Source of the DNA: Devosia sp. MC521
GTDB taxonomy: Bacteria > Pseudomonadota > Alphaproteobacteria > Rhizobiales > Devosiaceae
Direction of reading: 5' to 3'
NCBI RefSeq assembly: GCF_014127105.1
Contig: NZ_CP059902.1
Span: 1,025,001 to 1,089,000, forward strand
DNA: 64,000 nucleotides
The notes below the pieces were generated by a model. The model saw nothing but the letters and a program-made list of their open reading frames with translations, ran no database searches and was not told where the DNA came from. Shown here one piece after another: positions 56,024 through 64,000 of this stretch (position 1 is the first letter of the stretch; each line of letters starts with the position of its first letter). The position numbers were made by a program, and so were the translations under genes.

Positions 56024-56057
56024 ATCTGCCTTGGCAAGGTATGGCTCGGAGGTCGCG

Positions 56058-56510
56058 ATGTCGATGAATATCAAGAAGGATATGTATGTTGACGATGAGC
56101 CATCTCGGCGCGGCTGTATCAAAACGCTGCTGCGGATGTCTGGCCTTAGACCAACGCGGCAGCGCGTTGAACTCGCTGATCGTATATTTGGACGCGGGCG
56201 GCACTTGACCGCTGAGGATCTGCACAGTGAGGTTCACGCTGCGGGGCAGGAGATGTCCCTGGCAACGGTTTACAACACGCTGCATCAGTTCCAAAGCTCA
56301 GGCCTTATTCGCGAACTCTCGTTCAAGGGGACGCGTGCGGTTTTCGATACCGATACCTCAGGTCACCACCACTTCTATATCTTGGATGATGACAAGATTA
56401 TCGACATGGAGCCGGGGGCGGTGAGCGTGACTGACGTTAAATCGGTCCCTGAGGGCTACGAAGTGGCCAAGATTGAGATCGTTGTCAGTTTGCGAAAAGT
56501 AGAAATTTGA
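56058..56510 (+). CDS. irr: Irr-type Fur-family iron/haem regulator
   Basis: The 150-residue regulator has GLRPTRQRVELADRIFGRGR and HLTAEDLHSEV, then MSLATVYNTLHQFQSSGLIR as the DNA-reading helix, and the histidine cluster TSGHHHFYILDDDK of the metal or haem site. This is the Irr form of Fur found in Hyphomicrobiales, which represses or activates iron genes and is degraded or released on haem binding. GGAGG six bases before 56058 sets the start. The neighbouring haem-type and metal-type membrane genes may be targets. Confidence 0.85.
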   Translation: MSMNIKKDMYVDDEPSRRGCIKTLLRMSGLRPTRQRVELADRIFGRGRHLTAEDLHSEVHAAGQEMSLATVYNTLHQFQSSGLIRELSFKGTRAVFDTDTSGHHHFYILDDDKIIDMEPGAVSVTDVKSVPEGYEVAKIEIVVSLRKVEI

Positions 56511-56531
56511 AAGGGGCCGAATGGCCCCTTT
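56510..56531. terminator. Bidirectional terminator between irr and the cobT-like gene
   Basis: AAAGGGGCC and GGCCCCTTT pair over a four-base loop, with T-rich ends in both directions. It overlaps the stop codon of the cobT-like gene. Confidence 0.8.
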
Positions 56532-58392
56532 ATCGTCTGAGCATCTGGTCGAGCATTCCGATGAGCGCGGGTCCTAAATCGTCGATGGCATCGATGCGCT
56601 TGGCATGGCGATAGTATTGGTCGACCTCGTGACGAATGCCTAGGGCCGCAAGCTCGATCTGACCCGTACGTTCGATCTCGGCAACCACTTCTTTGAGATG
56701 ACGGTCGAGGATGGATTTGTCTTCGTTTGCCTCGATGGTCGCTTGATCAACAGGAGCGCCATCGGAAATGACAAGCAAAATCCGGCGTTGCTCTGGTCGG
56801 CCAACGAGACGACGCGCCGCCCAAAGCAGTGCTTCGCCGTCGATGTTCTCTTTGAGCAGGTCGTTGGACATCATTGCGCACAGGTTGAGCTTTGCCCGGC
56901 GATACGGTTCGTCAGCGCTTTTGTAGATGATGTGGAGGAGATCGTTTAGGCGGCCAGGATTGGCCGGGCGACCAGCACGCATCCAATCTTGGGCTGCGGC
57001 ACCGCCCTTCCATCCTTGAGTGGTGAAACCCAAAACTTCCGTCGACACGGAGCAATTCTCCAGCGCCGAGCAGATCAGGTCAGACGCCATGCAGGCGAGT
57101 TCAATGGTCTTGCCGCGCATAGAGCCGGAGTTGTCGATGAGGAGTGTAACGCAAGTATCCCGGAACTGAGACTCTTCTTCCTGCTTGTAGGCGTCAGCGA
57201 AGCCCGGATTGACAATGACGCGGTCAAGGCGAGAGGCGTCGATGAGCCCATCTTCGAGGTCAAACGCCCAAGACCGCGTTTGTTTAGCCATGAGCCGGCG
57301 CTGCAATTGGGTAACAAGACGGGCCATAGCCCGCTTATTGGCGGAGCGCTTTTGTTCCAGCGCATCTTGCGCTTGCCGCATAATTTGTTGCGGCACGAGT
57401 TCGTCTGCGCGGGCGATGCGATCGTGAGAGTCTGTATAGGGCCTGTATGCAGGAGATCGGGGCGGCGGGATGAAATCGATGTTCGGTAACGCATCCAGCT
57501 TCTCGTCGGAAACTAAAGCCTCCGGGCCAGGCTCAAAGCTGTTGTCTTCATCGGTCTGGGTGCCGCCGTGTTCGAGCTCTTCCTCCTCATCGCCGCCACC
57601 AGTGCGGTTACTGATCTCGCGGCGGGTTGGGCCGTCGCCGCGCCCCTGCAGAGCCTCGTAAAGCGTCTGTAAGAACCACTTGGCTGCAAAGGCGTAGTCC
57701 TGCTGATCGCCCATCGTCTCGCGCAACTTGGCGAGTTGGGCGTGCAAACGCTGGTGCATCCAACGGTGCCACATCCAGAAGCCAGAGGTGGGAATTGACG
57801 CTTCGGTGCGGCCATTCAGGACGTCGCCAACCACCATCCGGATCGCCTCTTCGAGCGGAATCAAAGCTGCTAAGTGGGCGCCCATGATGTCGAGACGAGA
57901 GAGGCGATCAATGTGGTTGGCAACAATGTTCTCAGCAACACCTGGCAGACGCTCTGCGCCAAAGGACTCGCAACGTACGAGCTCCAGTAGGTCGAACAAA
58001 CGACGCTCGTTTGGATCGGGAGGAGCGAGGGCGGCATGAATTTGGGCGTCATGGTGCGCTATAAATAGCGCTACTGAATCGACGCGGCCGCGAAGCGCGG
58101 GCATGTTTTCGTCGGTCAGCTCACCCAAGCTTGCCTTCAGACCTGTATACACGCCGTCGTCGCCAACGACTTGAATGTCGAGATCGTCACGTCCTGAAAG
58201 CGAGCGCGCCGAGGCGGCCAATTGTTGCGCCAAATCGAGACGATGCCGGTCGTGCGCCTTGGCGTCGGATTTTTCAGCGCGGCTCATCATGGAGGATGGG
58301 TCCGACCATAAGGCGAGCCATTCGGCGCCGTTTCGCACTGCGCCCCTGTCGTCGCGCTTCAGGATCGTTGATCTGATTTCGCCGTCTGTCAT
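56530..58392 (-). CDS. CobT-like VWA-domain protein (cobaltochelatase-subunit family)
   Basis: The 620-residue protein has the CobT layout: a helical N-terminal region, a short acidic linker (GGGDEEEELEHGG, near residue 270), LQRRLMAKQTRSWAFDLEDG, and a C-terminal VWA domain with the metal site TLLIDNSGSMRGKTIEL. GFTTQGWKGG, GRLNDLLHIIYKSADEP and LLKENIDGEALLWA also match CobT. The acidic linker is shorter than in cobalamin-pathway CobT. It is divergent from a hydroquinone dioxygenase operon that ends in a CobS-like gene. No cobalamin gene is seen, so a role in metal loading of the dioxygenase is proposed as an alternative. Confidence 0.88.
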   Translation of the reverse strand: MTDGEIRSTILKRDDRGAVRNGAEWLALWSDPSSMMSRAEKSDAKAHDRHRLDLAQQLAASARSLSGRDDLDIQVVGDDGVYTGLKASLGELTDENMPALRGRVDSVALFIAHHDAQIHAALAPPDPNERRLFDLLELVRCESFGAERLPGVAENIVANHIDRLSRLDIMGAHLAALIPLEEAIRMVVGDVLNGRTEASIPTSGFWMWHRWMHQRLHAQLAKLRETMGDQQDYAFAAKWFLQTLYEALQGRGDGPTRREISNRTGGGDEEEELEHGGTQTDEDNSFEPGPEALVSDEKLDALPNIDFIPPPRSPAYRPYTDSHDRIARADELVPQQIMRQAQDALEQKRSANKRAMARLVTQLQRRLMAKQTRSWAFDLEDGLIDASRLDRVIVNPGFADAYKQEEESQFRDTCVTLLIDNSGSMRGKTIELACMASDLICSALENCSVSTEVLGFTTQGWKGGAAAQDWMRAGRPANPGRLNDLLHIIYKSADEPYRRAKLNLCAMMSNDLLKENIDGEALLWAARRLVGRPEQRRILLVISDGAPVDQATIEANEDKSILDRHLKEVVAEIERTGQIELAALGIRHEVDQYYRHAKRIDAIDDLGPALIGMLDQMLRR

Positions 58393-58560
58393 AGCTTCCT
58401 CCAACCGCTTCAATTGTAACAGTTTTGTCAGCGTGAAAGGGCGGCATTTGGCTCGGAATGCGCAGAAGCTTGGCAGCTTTGTGCAGGCTCAAAAGGTGTA
58501 CTCGAAATACAACTCGTAGATGGAAGGTTAACACCTGATACAAACAGAGGAGAGTGTGGC
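58393..58560. promoter_or_regulatory. Divergent promoter region, cobT-like gene and dioxygenase operon
   Basis: The 168-bp gap should contain both promoters. The dioxygenase side ends with AGAGGAGAG, a strong ribosome site six bases before the GTG start; the other side has GGAGGAAGCT before the cobT-like ATG. Shared control of both transcripts is likely. No specific operator was identified. Confidence 0.5.
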
Positions 58561-59061
58561 GTGGCACAGTACACCACAGAGTTCGGCTCGATCCACTCGT
58601 ACAAAAAAGGCGGGATCACCGCCATTGATGATGATCCGAAGCGCTACGTATTTTCGAACATGTTTGAAGTTGCTGCGAAATCAGCGCCTTATGAGCGTGT
58701 AGCTGTCGCAAAGAATTTTGAATACGTCATTGAATCTGCCAAGGCTGAAGGTGAATCTCCTTGGTACTCTGCCGCGCATGATGAGTTCGTCATTGCTATG
58801 GACGGCAAGGTTCGTGTCGATTTCATCAAGCTCACTGATCCGGATGCTGTTGTCGATCCTGAGAGCGAAGGTGCTGTGATTGTGCAGGGCCAGCCTATCG
58901 GTGAAGCGATGGGTTATGTGGTGCTGAGCCGTGGTCACATGGCCATGCTGCCCGTTGGCTGCGCCTATAAATTCTCAGCAGCTGAAACCTGCACCATCAT
59001 CATTCAGACCATCGACGGCGCCGTGACCCAGCATAAGTGGGCGCAGTTCTGCCAGAAGTAA
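58561..59061 (+). CDS. Hydroquinone 1,2-dioxygenase, small subunit (HapC/HqdA-like)
   Basis: The 166-residue protein matches in length (about 18 kDa) and sequence pattern the small subunit of two-component hydroquinone dioxygenases, which open hydroquinone to 4-hydroxymuconic semialdehyde with Fe(II) and oxygen. Features include DDDPKRYVFSNMFEVAAKSA, PWYSAAHDEFVIAMDG and GHMAMLPVGCAYKF, a cupin-like core. It starts with GTG at 58561. The large subunit follows after 22 bp. Assignment rests on recall of the Pseudomonas HapCD and Sphingomonas HqdAB proteins. Confidence 0.85.
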   Translation: MAQYTTEFGSIHSYKKGGITAIDDDPKRYVFSNMFEVAAKSAPYERVAVAKNFEYVIESAKAEGESPWYSAAHDEFVIAMDGKVRVDFIKLTDPDAVVDPESEGAVIVQGQPIGEAMGYVVLSRGHMAMLPVGCAYKFSAAETCTIIIQTIDGAVTQHKWAQFCQK

Positions 59062-59083
59062 GGCCGGAAGAGGAGATCCTAAA

Positions 59084-60124
59084 ATGGCTATGAAAGAAGG
59101 CTTTGATAGCAGCGAAGGCGAGATCAGCAATCCGCGCGGTCTTCCCATCACTGGTGGTTATGCCGTCAATCCGGCTGACAACGTTACTGGTTATAAATCT
59201 TTCCAGGCTGGCTCGTTCAAATTCCATCGTGACGAGTACTTCTGCTACGTGAACACTCCGAATGGCGTGCACACGATGCCAGCAGACGCCTTCCTGCGCG
59301 CGCTGATGCGTGACGTGGCTTGGGGCTTCTTCTATGGCACTGTAAACTTTGACCAGGTCTTCGGCACCACCAATTATTATGGTGAAGTCGATATGTTCCT
59401 GGGCTCCACCAACGAGGCCTACACCTCAGCTGGTCGTGATTTTGTCGAGCGTTTTAAGGCCGACAAGCTTATGGACATCTTCAAGCAGATGGTCTCGGAC
59501 TGGACCAATGAGGGGTACGATCCGTTTGCGGCGCCAATGGAAACCGGTGTTCCATGGGGTATCAAGAACGGTGACAACGACGAAGCTGTTAGCCGCGAGC
59601 GCGTGACTGCACGCCGTATGGTTGGCCTACCGGGTGATACTCCGGTTCGTACCGACGGCAATGGCTACCCAGTCAATCGCATGTTTGCTGACGTACCGCA
59701 GGATCAGCCAGAAGTTCACGCTGCACCTGGCTTCGAGCACGAAGTTTCGGCTTACAATCTGTTTGGTTATCTGTCGCGCTCTGACGTGACCTGGAACCCA
59801 TCTGTTTGTTCGGTGGTAAAGGACAGCTTGTTCTGCCCAACTTCGGAAGAATACATCCTTCCCGTTGAGCACGGTAACGACCGTTGCGAATGGTTCATTC
59901 AGTTGACCGACGACATCACTTGGAACGTAAAGGACGGCGCAACCGGTCGTCCACGCGCGGTGATCAACATGAAGCCAGGCGATTGCTGCTGTATGCCAGC
60001 TGACATTCGTCACCAGGGCTTCTCGGCCAAGCGCTCGATGCTCTTGGTGTGGGAAAACGGTTCGCCCAAGATTCCTGAGCTCATCCGTCAGGGCATGGCC
60101 CCTGATGTGGCTGTTGAGTTCTAA
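59084..60124 (+). CDS. Hydroquinone 1,2-dioxygenase, large subunit (HapD/HqdB-like)
   Basis: The 346-residue protein (about 38 kDa) fits the large, iron-containing subunit of the enzyme. Characteristic blocks are LRALMRDVAWGFFYGTVNFD, FADVPQDQPEVHAAPGFEHE, LSRSDVTWNPSVCS and KPGDCCCMPADIRHQGFSAK, with several histidine and acidic residues available for a mononuclear non-haem iron site. GGAAGAGGAG precedes the start. It is followed by a strong terminator before the downstream genes. Confidence 0.87.
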   Translation: MAMKEGFDSSEGEISNPRGLPITGGYAVNPADNVTGYKSFQAGSFKFHRDEYFCYVNTPNGVHTMPADAFLRALMRDVAWGFFYGTVNFDQVFGTTNYYGEVDMFLGSTNEAYTSAGRDFVERFKADKLMDIFKQMVSDWTNEGYDPFAAPMETGVPWGIKNGDNDEAVSRERVTARRMVGLPGDTPVRTDGNGYPVNRMFADVPQDQPEVHAAPGFEHEVSAYNLFGYLSRSDVTWNPSVCSVVKDSLFCPTSEEYILPVEHGNDRCEWFIQLTDDITWNVKDGATGRPRAVINMKPGDCCCMPADIRHQGFSAKRSMLLVWENGSPKIPELIRQGMAPDVAVEF

Positions 60125-60155
60125 CGAACGGGTGGTTGCTCCCACTTCCGCCCTG

Positions 60156-60186
60156 CGGCCGCCTCAGTACTGGGGCGGCCGTTTTT
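60156..60186 (+). terminator. Rho-independent terminator inside the operon
   Basis: CGGCCGCC and GGCGGCCG pair exactly over ten bases, followed by five T residues. It lies 32 bp after the large-subunit stop and just before the dehydrogenase start, so the subunit genes may be expressed more than those downstream. Confidence 0.85.
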
Positions 60187-60216
60187 CCAACACGCTCAGA
60201 AACATCGGTGCGACCA

Positions 60217-61680
60217 GTGCAAACCAAGCTCTTCATTAACGGTGAATTCGTCGACGGCATCGCCAAAGGCACGATCCCTGTTTTCAACCCGTTCTCCGGC
60301 GAAGTCATTTGCGAAATCGCAGAGGCACGTGCGGAAGACGTTGATGTTGCCGTCGCAGCCGCCAAACAAGCTCAAAAGGCCTGGGGCCGTGCCGATGCCG
60401 CTGAACGCGGGCACCTCCTGCTCAAGTTGGCCGACGCGATTGAGGCCAATGCGGAAGAGCTAATCCAACTTGAAGCGCTTGATACCGGCCATCCTGTGCG
60501 CGATGCGCGCAAGCTGGATGTGCCGCGCACATCGCGCTGCTTCCGCTATTTCGGCGGCATGGCTGACAAGCTGGAAGGTTTCGTCCCGCCAGTCTATCCG
60601 GGCTTCCTTAATTACGTTCAGCGCGAAGCAATCGGTGTGGTTGGTCAGATCGTGCCATGGAACTTCCCGCTCATGTTCACCAGCTGGAAGATGGCACCCG
60701 CTCTGGCCGCTGGTAATGCCATTGTTATTAAACCAAGTGAACTGACGCCGCTGAGCACGTTGCGTATCGCCGAACTGATGCGCGATGTTGGCTTCCCAGC
60801 AGGTGTCGTCAACGTTGTTCCCGGCTATGGCCACACCGCTGGTCAGCGTCTGGCTGAGCATCCTCATGTTGGCAAGATCGCTTTCACCGGTTCAACCGCT
60901 ACCGGCCGCCGTATCGTCCAGTCTTCGGCTGGTAACCTCAAGAAGGTTCAGCTCGAGCTGGGCGGCAAGGGCCCAAATATAGTCTTTGGTGATGCCAATG
61001 TTCGGGCTGCCATTGGCGGTTCTGCCTTCGCAATTTTCCATAACCAGGGCCAGGCCTGCATCGCGGGCTCGCGCCTCATCCTGCACAAATCGGTAGCCGA
61101 CGAGTTCCTCGACGGTTTCACCAAGCTGGCGAAATCCATTCGCCTTGGCGATCCGCTGGATCCGCAGACCGAAATGGGCCCGCTGACGTCCAAGATGCAC
61201 CAGGAACGCGTGCTGCAGTTCTGCCAGGTTGCCAAGGACGAGGGTGGTGAAATAATCACCGGCGGCAAGCGGCCTGATCGTGAAGACCTCGCAAATGGCT
61301 ACTTCGTTGAGCCCACAATCGTGCGCGCGAAGCCCACCGATCGCGTGAGCCAAGAGGAAGTGTTTGGTCCGTTTGTGACGGTCACCACTTTTGAAGACGA
61401 CGAAGAAGCATTGGCGATCGCTAATGGCGTTCAATACGGTTTGGGTTCCGGTCTTTGGACGCTGAACCTCACCCGTGCTCATAAGCTCGCCCAAGACATT
61501 CACGCCGGCATGGTTTGGGTGAATTGCTACAAGATCGTTCACCCAGGCTCGCCATTCGGAGGGGTTGGCGAAAGTGGCTATGGTCGCGAAATGGGCTTTG
61601 AAGTCATGCGCGAATACACGCAGCCAAAATCGGTTTGGGTCAATTATGACTCGAAAATGCCTCCCCACTACGAGCGTTGA
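60217..61680 (+). CDS. 4-hydroxymuconic semialdehyde dehydrogenase (HapE-like)
   Basis: The 487-residue aldehyde dehydrogenase has VPWNFPLMFTSWKMAPAL, LELGGKGPNIVFGDAN with the catalytic glutamate, and FHNQGQACIAGSRLILH with the catalytic cysteine. It should oxidise the ring-cleavage product to maleylacetate. The GTG at 60217 (VQTKLFINGEF) is preferred; a longer frame from 60136 would run through the terminator. The order small subunit, large subunit, this gene, maleylacetate reductase equals hapCDEF. Confidence 0.87.
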   Translation: MQTKLFINGEFVDGIAKGTIPVFNPFSGEVICEIAEARAEDVDVAVAAAKQAQKAWGRADAAERGHLLLKLADAIEANAEELIQLEALDTGHPVRDARKLDVPRTSRCFRYFGGMADKLEGFVPPVYPGFLNYVQREAIGVVGQIVPWNFPLMFTSWKMAPALAAGNAIVIKPSELTPLSTLRIAELMRDVGFPAGVVNVVPGYGHTAGQRLAEHPHVGKIAFTGSTATGRRIVQSSAGNLKKVQLELGGKGPNIVFGDANVRAAIGGSAFAIFHNQGQACIAGSRLILHKSVADEFLDGFTKLAKSIRLGDPLDPQTEMGPLTSKMHQERVLQFCQVAKDEGGEIITGGKRPDREDLANGYFVEPTIVRAKPTDRVSQEEVFGPFVTVTTFEDDEEALAIANGVQYGLGSGLWTLNLTRAHKLAQDIHAGMVWVNCYKIVHPGSPFGGVGESGYGREMGFEVMREYTQPKSVWVNYDSKMPPHYER

Positions 61681-61700
61681 TCGCACCACAGGAGAGCACT

Positions 61701-62753
61701 ATGGACTTTGTATATAACGCCAATCCTTCGCGTGTCATTTTCGGGGCCGGGGCGCGGGCGCGCGTCGGCGAAGAACTCGAACGTCTGGGCATCAAGCGCG
61801 CCATCGTGCTGTCCACCCCCGATCAATCTCAGCTTGCCGCTGAGATCGCCAAAACCATCGGTGGCCGCGCTGGGATTATGTATCCCGGCGCCGTCATGCA
61901 CACCCCAACTGAAGTGACAGAGTCGGCCTTGCAGGCGGTCAGTTCGGTGCGCGCAGATGGTTGCTTGGCGATTGGCGGCGGCTCGACGACAGGCCTATCT
62001 AAAGCCATCGCCTATCGCACAGACCTGCCGCAGTTGATCGTGCCGACCACGTTTGCCGGCTCGGAGATGACGCCTATTTTGGGGCAGACCGAAATGGGTC
62101 GAAAAACGACGCTGTCTAGCCCGAAAGTCCTGCCCGAAACGGTGATTTATGATCCCGAGCTGACGGTCACGATGCCGAAGTTCATTTCGGGACCGTCAGG
62201 CCTGAACGCAATCGCCCACTCGATGGAAGGGCTTTATGCCCGTGATCGCAACCCGATTATCTCCATGATGGCCGAAGAATCCATTCGGGCTTTGGGCGTC
62301 GCTTTACCGAAGCTTATGGACGATCCGAGCAATCTGGAGGCGCACGGTGATGCGCTTTACGGCGCTTGGTTTGCTGGCATCTGCCTTGGTTCGGTGGGTA
62401 TGGCTATTCACCACAAGATCTGCCACACGCTGGGCGGCACTCTGAACCTCAACCATGCAGATGTGCACGCGTTGATGCTTCCCTATACCGCTGCCTACAA
62501 TCGTGAAGCTGCGCCTGAAGCTATGGCCGCCATTGCGCGCGCTCTGAAGGCCCATGATGGTCCTAGAGGCCTTTATGCCCTCATGAAGGTTTGCGCTAGC
62601 AAGCGCTCGCTTAAGGAAATGGGCGTGAGCGAGGCGGACCTCGAAAAGGTCGCTGATATTGCGATGGAAAACCCGTACTTCAATCCTCGTCCGGTAACGC
62701 GTGAAGGTATCCGTGAGATGCTTCAGGCTGCCTATGAAGGTCGGGAGCCGTAA
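61701..62753 (+). CDS. Maleylacetate reductase (HapF-like, iron-type alcohol dehydrogenase)
   Basis: The 350-residue enzyme begins MDFVYNANPSRVIFGAGARA and has LAIGGGSTTGLSKAIAYR (nucleotide loop), VPTTFAGSEMTPILG and AIHHKICHTLGGTLNLNHAD, the metal-site histidines of maleylacetate reductases. It reduces maleylacetate to 3-oxoadipate. GGAGAGC precedes the start. It lies 20 bp after the dehydrogenase gene. Confidence 0.92.
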   Translation: MDFVYNANPSRVIFGAGARARVGEELERLGIKRAIVLSTPDQSQLAAEIAKTIGGRAGIMYPGAVMHTPTEVTESALQAVSSVRADGCLAIGGGSTTGLSKAIAYRTDLPQLIVPTTFAGSEMTPILGQTEMGRKTTLSSPKVLPETVIYDPELTVTMPKFISGPSGLNAIAHSMEGLYARDRNPIISMMAEESIRALGVALPKLMDDPSNLEAHGDALYGAWFAGICLGSVGMAIHHKICHTLGGTLNLNHADVHALMLPYTAAYNREAAPEAMAAIARALKAHDGPRGLYALMKVCASKRSLKEMGVSEADLEKVADIAMENPYFNPRPVTREGIREMLQAAYEGREP

Positions 62754-62762
62754 GGTCTGACA

Positions 62763-63068
62763 ATGGCATATTTTTGCTTTCACGCCTTTGATAAACCGGG
62801 TGTCCTCGACACACGCTTGGCGCTTCGCGACACTCATAGGGCTTTCTTACGCAATCACGACCACCCATTGACGGTGCATGTCGGTGGGCCGCTGTTGAAC
62901 GCCGATGGACAGATGCATGGCTCGATGCTGGTCATTGAAGCGGAGACCAAAGCTGTCGTCGAAGCCTTCTTGGCCCAAGACGAATATATGAAGGCAGGCA
63001 TCTTCGCCTCGTACACTCTTGAGCAGTTTAATTGGGGTTTAGGCCAGCCAGAGGCCCGCAATGGCTGA
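62763..63068 (+). CDS. YciI-family protein
   Basis: The 101-residue protein has FCFHAFDKPGVLDTRLALRD, VGGPLLNADGQMHGSMLVIE and FLAQDEYMKAGIFASYTLEQ, the ferredoxin-like YciI fold with its histidine-aspartate pair. Relatives include lactone-processing and dehalogenating enzymes of aromatic pathways, so it may handle a side product of ring cleavage. It overlaps the Rieske gene by 8 bp. Confidence 0.83.
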   Translation: MAYFCFHAFDKPGVLDTRLALRDTHRAFLRNHDHPLTVHVGGPLLNADGQMHGSMLVIEAETKAVVEAFLAQDEYMKAGIFASYTLEQFNWGLGQPEARNG

Positions 63069-63471
63069 CGCACTTTCGCAGCCCGATCCAAACCTATGGC
63101 GCACACGGCCGCGTGCGCCCATGCCCGGAACGGTTTTAGGCCCGCTCGAAGACGTCGGGAACGGCAAGGCAAAGGAATATGTCTTTGGCCGCGGAACGAC
63201 CGTGTTCTCCATGTTTGTTGTTCGGCGGGACGAGCACGTCTACGGCTATCTCAACATTTGTCCGCACTATTCATCGCCGCTGAACCACCGTGCAGGCCAT
63301 TTTTTAAACGAAGATGGCAGCCGAATTCGCTGCACCATGCATTTCGCAGAATTCCGGATTGAAGACGGATTTGGTGTAGCAGGTGCCGCTCAGAATTGCT
63401 GGCTCGACCCGGTTCCGGTTCATATCGAAGATGGCAATATCGTCATCTCTAAGTTGCAGGCGAGTTCATGA
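63061..63471 (+). CDS. Rieske-type ferredoxin
   Basis: The 136-residue protein has both halves of the Rieske site, NICPHYSSPLNH (C-x-H) and IRCTMHFAEFRIEDG (C-x-x-H), spaced by 21 residues, and no catalytic domain, so it is an electron carrier with a [2Fe-2S] cluster. No oxygenase that needs it is seen in the window. It could keep the dioxygenase iron reduced, as the ferredoxin XylT does for catechol 2,3-dioxygenase. Its stop overlaps the CobS-like start (ATGA). Confidence 0.87.
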   Translation: MADALSQPDPNLWRTRPRAPMPGTVLGPLEDVGNGKAKEYVFGRGTTVFSMFVVRRDEHVYGYLNICPHYSSPLNHRAGHFLNEDGSRIRCTMHFAEFRIEDGFGVAGAAQNCWLDPVPVHIEDGNIVISKLQASS

Positions 63472-64000
63472 GCGAAGACAATTTCACTTTGGCAAAGCCA
63501 GACACAGAAGTGTCCATTCGGCATACGTTTGGGATTGATGTCGATGGGACGGTTCCTGCCTTTTCGACAGGTAACGAGCACGTGCCGACCGTTGATCCGG
63601 GCTATCAGTTCGATCCGTCGACGACGATGGCCATCCTGGCTGGTTTCCGGGACAATTTGCGTGTTCTGCTGCAGGGGCGTCATGGCACGGGTAAATCGAG
63701 CCATATTGAACAGGTCGCTGCACGTCTTAATTGGCCCTGTGTTCGCCTCAACCTCGACAGTCACGTGTCGCGGATCGACTTGATAGGGAAAGATGCCATC
63801 GTTCTCCGGGACGGTAAGCAGGTCACAGATTACCGCGAAGGGCTGTTGCCTTGGTGCTATCAGCGGCCGGTTGTACTGATCCTCGATGAGTATGATGCTG
63901 GCCGTCCGGACGTCATGTTCGTGATCCAGCGCATTTTGGAAGCTGACGGCAAGCTGACCATTATGGATCAGAACAAGGTCATTCCGCCCAACCCTTTCTT
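63468..64000 (+). CDS. CobS-like MoxR-type AAA+ ATPase, C-terminus cut by window
   Basis: The visible 177 residues match CobS: VSIRHTFGIDVDGTVPAFST, Walker A QGRHGTGKSSHIEQVAARL, VRLNLDSHVSRIDLIGKDAI, Walker B VVLILDEYDAGRPDVMFVIQ and KLTIMDQNKVIPP. It is translationally coupled to the Rieske gene. With the CobT-like VWA protein at the other end of the locus it forms the AAA+/VWA pair of a metal chelatase or maturation machine. The 3' end is outside the window. Confidence 0.9.
   Translation, partial: MSEDNFTLAKPDTEVSIRHTFGIDVDGTVPAFSTGNEHVPTVDPGYQFDPSTTMAILAGFRDNLRVLLQGRHGTGKSSHIEQVAARLNWPCVRLNLDSHVSRIDLIGKDAIVLRDGKQVTDYREGLLPWCYQRPVVLILDEYDAGRPDVMFVIQRILEADGKLTIMDQNKVIPPNPF

Follow-up and report, generated by a model that had tools for sequence, protein, structure and literature searches.

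Gene organization of the hydroquinone locus

The DNA analyzed here, termed the window, is a stretch of 64,000 nucleotides (bases 1025001-1089000) from a one-contig, 3.78 Mb Devosia-like genome. Its final part holds a predicted hydroquinone-cleavage operon, in which the genes for the two-subunit dioxygenase PnpCD are enclosed by a CobT-like gene and a CobS-like gene. The CobT-like VWA protein is encoded on the minus strand (56530-58413, window numbering) and matched the Pfam families CobT (129 bits) and CobT_C (252 bits). The first listed start of this gene is a TTG codon; alignment of relatives favors the ATG at 58392 as the probable start, giving a product of 620 residues. An intergenic region, read from the sequence (58414-58560), separates it from the divergent genes, all on the plus strand. 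PnpC, the small subunit of hydroquinone 1,2-dioxygenase (58561-59061), gave zero matches in the Pfam scan of the window proteins and was assigned by its position and its 61% identity to the gene preceding PnpD on a Sphingobium cloacae plasmid. The large catalytic subunit, PnpD (59084-60124), matched PF18191 with 174 bits and the large subunit of a solved hydroquinone dioxygenase, 5m21, with 567 bits. Family scans further identified an aldehyde dehydrogenase with a putative start codon, presumed to be 4-hydroxymuconic semialdehyde dehydrogenase (60136-61680), and a YciI-family protein (62763-63068). Between these two lies a member of the iron-type alcohol dehydrogenase (Fe-ADH) family, identified with Pfam and taken from its context to be maleylacetate reductase (61677-62753).

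The last gene of the operon encodes a Rieske [2Fe-2S] ferredoxin (63061-63471), found with Pfam, in which the C-x-H and C-x2-H motifs that we take to be the Rieske pattern were judged intact by eye. The CobS-like AAA+ ATPase gene (CobS_N and AAA_5 matches) starts inside it at 63468, an overlap of 4 bp, and runs to 64000 and beyond the window; the complete protein, read from a stretch of the genome that extends past the window end (L009, 8469-9455), has 328 residues. The gene set, the layout, and the overlap reported in the first-pass annotation were all recovered in the gene calls and family scans. That annotation had also reported no cobalamin gene, which held for the locus stretch and, for CobN, for the whole genome, the remainder of the window not having been scanned for other cobalamin genes.

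Beyond the window, the CobS-like gene is followed by an AraC regulator gene and then by transporter-like genes and an intradiol dioxygenase gene. The transporter-like genes have a branched-chain-type ABC look, and the scan covered their binding protein only. On the other side, a gap of 19 bp separates the 3' terminus of the CobT-like gene from an Irr-like Fur-family iron-response regulator (56031-56510); it scored 157.8 bits against the NCBIfam IrrA cut-off of 150, and an Irr-like match lies ∼6 kb off in two related loci (L024 and L025).

In PnpD, residues His-263, Glu-269, and His-310, presumably the iron ligands, were invariant in all seven aligned PnpD sequences. Together with PF18191 membership, these conserved positions identify the Devosia PnpCD as a predicted hydroquinone 1,2-dioxygenase that would cleave the aromatic ring. 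The CobT-like protein consists of an N-terminal motif (GAVRNGAEWLALWSDP), a helical domain, disordered linkers, and a VWA domain with the metal-ion-dependent adhesion site (MIDAS) DNSGS. The D and both S residues of the latter were invariant in 15 aligned CobT proteins, and the N was replaced by C in two of them. The CobS-like protein contains, by eye, the P-loop GRHGTGKS and the Walker B sequence LILDE. If these AAA+ and MIDAS motifs carry their usual meanings, as we assume, the two proteins combine an AAA+ ATPase with a VWA partner in the manner of NorQ/NorD pairs. Consistent with this, the predicted fold of the CobT-like protein has a NorD-like VWA domain with finger, and the NorD VWA-plus-finger structures were its best solved matches among the matches listed, which strengthens the comparison with NorQ/NorD drawn in the earlier annotation.

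Conservation and ancestry of the operon-linked pair

To place the pair in a wider context, genome contigs were scanned by PnpD alignment. This gave 439 relatives, of which the best 80 loci were read; among these, Devosia equisanguinis and D. enhydra were the nearest named relatives at the hydroquinone locus. Genome-level tests covered 46 of the 80. With tblastn, CobT and/or CobS was found at 14 PnpD loci, 12 alphaproteobacterial (L024-L031, L034, L036, L038, and L045) and two from Steroidobacteraceae (L095 and L098), with CobS inside the locus in nine. For L033 and L039, an operon-type CobT adjoining PnpC or Rieske was located on a different contig of the genome in question, and a truncated beginning of such a gene was seen at the contig edge of L040, bringing the total to 17 of 80. 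At L037, no operon CobT was found in the 3 kb upstream on its contig. Wherever both genes lay on one stretch, CobT was beside and divergent from PnpC, within ∼1.4 kb. The recurrence excludes a one-off linkage, and the survey of co-occurrence that had been proposed found the linkage conserved in relatives and in another class. Dedicated linkage of the pair with the hydroquinone operon is therefore well supported. Given that the pair was not seen at most of the PnpCD loci read, it is an accessory of some lineages and not a universal requirement.

The Rieske gene adjoined CobS or CobT on the same strand in 14 of the 15 loci having both kinds of gene (CobS in 11, CobT in three), the exception being L034, cut by a contig end. 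The 4 bp overlap between the Rieske and CobS frames recurred in L009, L024, L025, L026, L095, and L098, and hence in both classes; the start in L022 was ambiguous.

The N-terminal motif, in essence G-x-[VI]-R-x-G-x-E-W-L-x-x-W-[SA]-x-P, was present in 15 of 18 operon CobT proteins and absent from all 38 ordinary and all four short CobT proteins. A search across 2.36 Mb of loci, some overlapping, returned 21 matches. Fifteen were the motif-bearing operon CobT proteins, and the remaining six read as the window, L012, L019, L020, and L163 (other loci with the same genes), and L040. Because the profile match to solved CobT spans residues 48-618, the motif, within the first 47 residues, falls outside it.

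Several lines of evidence separate the operon pair from the genome's cobaltochelatase-type proteins. The genome contains one other CobT_C gene, with CobS and a DnaJ-domain protein encoded next to it, so the operon pair is not its only CobS/CobT. This removes what the first-pass annotation had named as a reason to abandon its proposal. Against the NCBIfam equivalog cut-off for cobaltochelatase CobT (TIGR01651, 759.05 bits), the ordinary copy passed with 886.3 bits and the operon protein failed with 467; against that for CobS (TIGR01650, 558.55 bits), the corresponding scores were 636.5 and 499.6. The L024 and L098 versions of the operon pair likewise fell under these cut-offs. No match to CobN (TIGR02257) was found anywhere in the genome at an E value of 0.001.

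A careful, unrooted tree of 37 CobT proteins, which left out L034, L166, the four short forms, and 17 chosen ordinary sequences, placed 21 ordinary CobT proteins on one side of a branch with support of 100/99. Operon CobT thus lies outside the ordinary clade and does not group with cobaltochelatase CobT. The 14 alphaproteobacterial operon proteins clustered with support of 99/95; those from the two Steroidobacteraceae fell outside both groups, toward the ordinary side. A quick tree of 60 proteins agreed on the ordinary group (38 members; Shimodaira-Hasegawa approximate likelihood ratio test (SH-aLRT) value of 99); in it, the long sequences L034 and L166 clustered with a short form. In the CobS tree, nine alphaproteobacterial operon proteins grouped at an SH-aLRT value of 99 and 19 ordinary proteins at 84, with both Steroidobacteraceae CobS proteins adjoining the ordinary group.

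It could be proposed that the pair is a second, duplicated copy of the cobaltochelatase motor that still serves cobalamin or another tetrapyrrole, its operon position being due to chance or regulation. Such a role would fit the clear homology to CobS and CobT across most of their length. Among genomes with the operon-type pair, CobN passed the cut-off in some, including several alphaproteobacterial relatives, and not in others; in the two Steroidobacteraceae, the operon CobT was the only full CobT found and the CobN-like genes, located elsewhere, were below the cut-off. The proposal is nevertheless most improbable in view of the separate CobS/CobT pair and the missing CobN match in the Devosia genome, the failure of both proteins at the family cut-offs, their position outside the ordinary clade, and the linkage to PnpCD in two classes.

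Ordinary CobS/CobT without CobN above the cut-off, as seen in the Devosia genome (L010, 6130-9137), occurred in 19 of the 37 genomes with ordinary CobT, among 46 tested. Some of these are incomplete metagenome-assembled genomes, but the group also includes isolates, for example Novosphingobium Rr 2-17, Sphingomonas mali, and Sphingobium xenophagum. The retention of ordinary CobS/CobT without CobN suggests a non-cobalamin role for the ordinary proteins too.

Second CobT genes were surveyed in three samples. Among 75 genomes of the genus, PnpD occurred in three, and a second full-length CobT in the same three; in one further genome (G500), the second match was a contig-edge piece nearest to ordinary CobT. 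Among 385 genomes of the class, seven had at least two CobT_C matches. The six non-self cases comprised two split genes, three short forms (337-349 residues), and one distant 25-bit match in a 574-residue frame (G668), which rules out a second full-length CobT as a common feature of the class. Among 397 genomes of the order, 17 (counted by eye) had at least two CobT matches, including both genomes with PnpD over the cut-off. G098, with a PnpD match of 23.5 bits below the cut-off, had one CobT and, in the surroundings of that match, only a 28% aldehyde dehydrogenase match. The other 15 comprised five with genes in pieces, four with 20-23-bit matches, four with shorter or partial copies, and two with long copies (G193 and G250). 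The last two indicate that full-length second copies of CobT are not restricted to the hydroquinone operon.

G193 carries a full CobS/CobT pair (L234, 9457-12218) that is 67% and 39% identical to the ordinary pair; no hydroquinone gene match was found in the 19.5 kb around it, and the neighboring genes have, by eye, a urea/branched-chain-type ABC transporter look. The distant CobS-like and CobT-like genes of G250 (34%; L235, 7756-10017) lie in a setting that appears phage-like by eye. G401 (L167, 9644-15313) has three consecutive matches, namely part of a CobS, a CobT with 603 matched residues (44% to the ordinary protein), and a further C-terminal CobT piece (73%). This arrangement looks like a partial duplication of ordinary CobT in tandem. 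A Ruegeria genome (G403; L168 and L169) has remnant-like pieces of operon-type CobT, of 122 and 90 matched residues, at two places besides its operon copy.

In the PnpD tree, with L040 scored negative, the pair clustered in one alphaproteobacterial group and in the Steroidobacteraceae, with four changes, three of them forced by starred branches. Distances between operon CobT proteins co-varied with those between PnpD proteins when ordinary CobT served as species proxy (partial r of 0.49, p of 0.0004, 13 genomes). L026, from a Rhodobacterales genome, was nearest Devosia in PnpD and operon CobT but, by ordinary CobT, closest to L027 and L030, a discordance suggesting that the genes of the cluster are transferred together. 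This discordance and the patchy, seemingly mobile distribution between orders would also be expected if an old cluster were spread by transfer with CobS and CobT genes that no longer matter. Such passive carriage is very unlikely in view of the intact motor and MIDAS motifs, the repeated 4 bp overlap between Rieske and CobS, and the reappearance of the association in Steroidobacteraceae.

A candidate maturation and rescue system for PnpCD

In vitamin B12 synthesis, the CobS/CobT motor normally serves to load cobalt. The Fe(II) of extradiol-type dioxygenases oxidizes, which makes these enzymes short-lived, and ferredoxins are thought to rescue them. We consider there to be an even chance that the operon-encoded proteins form an AAA+/VWA motor for iron rescue of PnpCD together with the Rieske protein, and not a cobaltochelatase. 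In broader terms, the recurrence of the pairing in other bacteria indicates that the motor probably helps to keep this fragile, iron-dependent ring-cleaving enzyme working. In the proposed mechanism, the CobS-like ring would grip the VWA/finger domain of the CobT-like protein, whose N-terminal part would dock on the pathway, and ATP hydrolysis would open inactivated PnpCD. Its ferric or lost iron could then be re-reduced or replaced, the co-translated Rieske ferredoxin acting as putative electron donor. The conserved Rieske coupling, given no emphasis in the first-pass annotation, suggests that reduction is one element of the function, and participation of the ferredoxin in the motor's function appears plausible on this basis. 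More tentative, and somewhat short of an even chance, is the specific proposition that a tetrapyrrole-chelatase motor was re-tooled, by addition of the docking motif and the Rieske protein, for ATP-driven reductive re-metallation of a soluble mononuclear Fe(II) dioxygenase.

The first-pass annotation had proposed that the pair is a dedicated factor inserting or repairing the Fe(II) of the dioxygenase. This proposal was supported in part. The dedicated nature of the pair was upheld by the conserved linkage and the second pair in the genome; we infer that the client is PnpCD, that the difficulty lies with its iron, and that metal insertion into the enzyme may be ATP-driven. No report linking CobS/CobT to hydroquinone dioxygenase was found in the open-access literature among the matches listed, and a term search of PMC9976466 found neither CobS nor dioxygenase.

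A number of observations weigh against iron rescue of PnpCD by the pair, in particular as a strict requirement. The pair was absent from 63 of the 80 PnpD loci in the available DNA, some cut by contig ends, and was not found at any of the six plasmid PnpD loci examined, a subset of the 20 matching plasmid records. In the PnpD tree, 30 of 48 rows were scored negative, including L040, later found positive. CobT occurred without CobS in the available DNA of L036, L038, and L045, where ordinary CobS may serve; contig ends truncate L031, L034, and L164. The N-terminal motif is lacking in the operon CobT proteins of L036 and both Steroidobacteraceae. The closeness of the predicted fold to NorD applies to the fold matches listed, among which 9uka and the other solved CobT structures did not appear. 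PnpD distance correlated more strongly with ordinary CobT (r of 0.78) than with operon CobT (0.70), and the partial r dropped to 0.31 (p of 0.018) without the near-copies L024 and L025; the co-variation is partly species history. Rieske genes were also found in hydroquinone operons without CobS/CobT and can therefore act alone.

Findings on the Sphingomonas TTNP3 enzyme belong with these points. The 5m21 sequence, which we take to be that of the Sphingomonas TTNP3 enzyme, is identical over the aligned part to PnpD of the Sphingobium cloacae plasmid locus L013, and CobS/CobT were not found across 21 kb of that locus. According to PMC3222310, an active, iron-containing hydroquinone dioxygenase was purified from Sphingomonas TTNP3, its substrate inactivates it, Fe(II) fails to reverse this, and ferredoxin rescue is mentioned. 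The failure of Fe(II) is at odds with simple iron loss. As a separate observation on S. cloacae, L013 has both dioxygenase subunits, and on the small plasmid pSCLO_7 (L015), PnpD is preceded by a PnpC match of merely 64 residues.

This same inactivation by substrate, in a form that Fe(II) does not rescue, would be expected if the pair were an activase that frees the dioxygenase of tightly bound inhibitors or dead-end complexes in the style of CbbQ/CbbO on Rubisco, with no role in metal handling or reduction. The CobS-like sequence does match CbbQ, weakly (6e-8), but the conserved coupling to a Rieske ferredoxin suggests electron transfer, and such an activase seems unlikely. A client other than PnpCD must also be weighed, whether the Rieske protein, a transporter, or an upstream oxygenase whose gene lies elsewhere, because operon linkage alone cannot name the client product and the Rieske gene is the one most tightly tied to CobS/CobT. 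This is distinctly unlikely given the divergent placement of CobT next to PnpC and the many operons in which Rieske genes occur without the pair.

Were iron rescue of PnpCD correct, a dedicated ATP-driven activase would explain sustained ring cleavage in some bacteria and offer a route to stabilizing such dioxygenases in bioremediation, and the CobS/CobT motor would have uses outside vitamin B12. It also bears on the puzzle that many of the tested Alphaproteobacteria keep ordinary CobS/CobT with no CobN passing the cut-off.

Comparison with known systems

NorQ/NorD is a MoxR AAA+/VWA pair needed for non-heme iron insertion into nitric oxide reductase. The Devosia system shares its two-protein AAA+/VWA design, the VWA-plus-finger fold predicted for the CobT-like protein (closest to NorD among the matches listed), and the position of the gene pair beside a presumed client that is a non-heme-iron enzyme. 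It differs in that the proteins are of CobS/CobT type in sequence, the presumed client is soluble, the genes flank the operon, a Rieske gene is coupled to them, and the activity is a prediction. With the cobaltochelatase CobN/CobS/CobT, the pair shares homologous CobS and CobT proteins, including the profile match of residues 48-618 to solved CobT. By contrast, no CobN was found in the genome, the pair falls under both equivalog cut-offs and outside the ordinary clade, and its CobT has a conserved motif in the 47 residues preceding that match.

Hydroquinone dioxygenase operons are known under the names HapCD and HqdAB as well as PnpCD. Those compared here likewise contain PnpC, PnpD, aldehyde dehydrogenase, and maleylacetate reductase, often with YciI and Rieske genes, and unlike the Devosia operon they have no CobS/CobT at the six plasmid loci and, in the available DNA, at 63 of 80 chromosomal-type loci. 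Finally, XylT-like ferredoxins re-reduce extradiol dioxygenases, and, as in Devosia, a small [2Fe-2S] protein is encoded beside an Fe(II) ring-cleaving dioxygenase; the Devosia protein differs in being of Rieske type and in its coupling to an AAA+/VWA motor.

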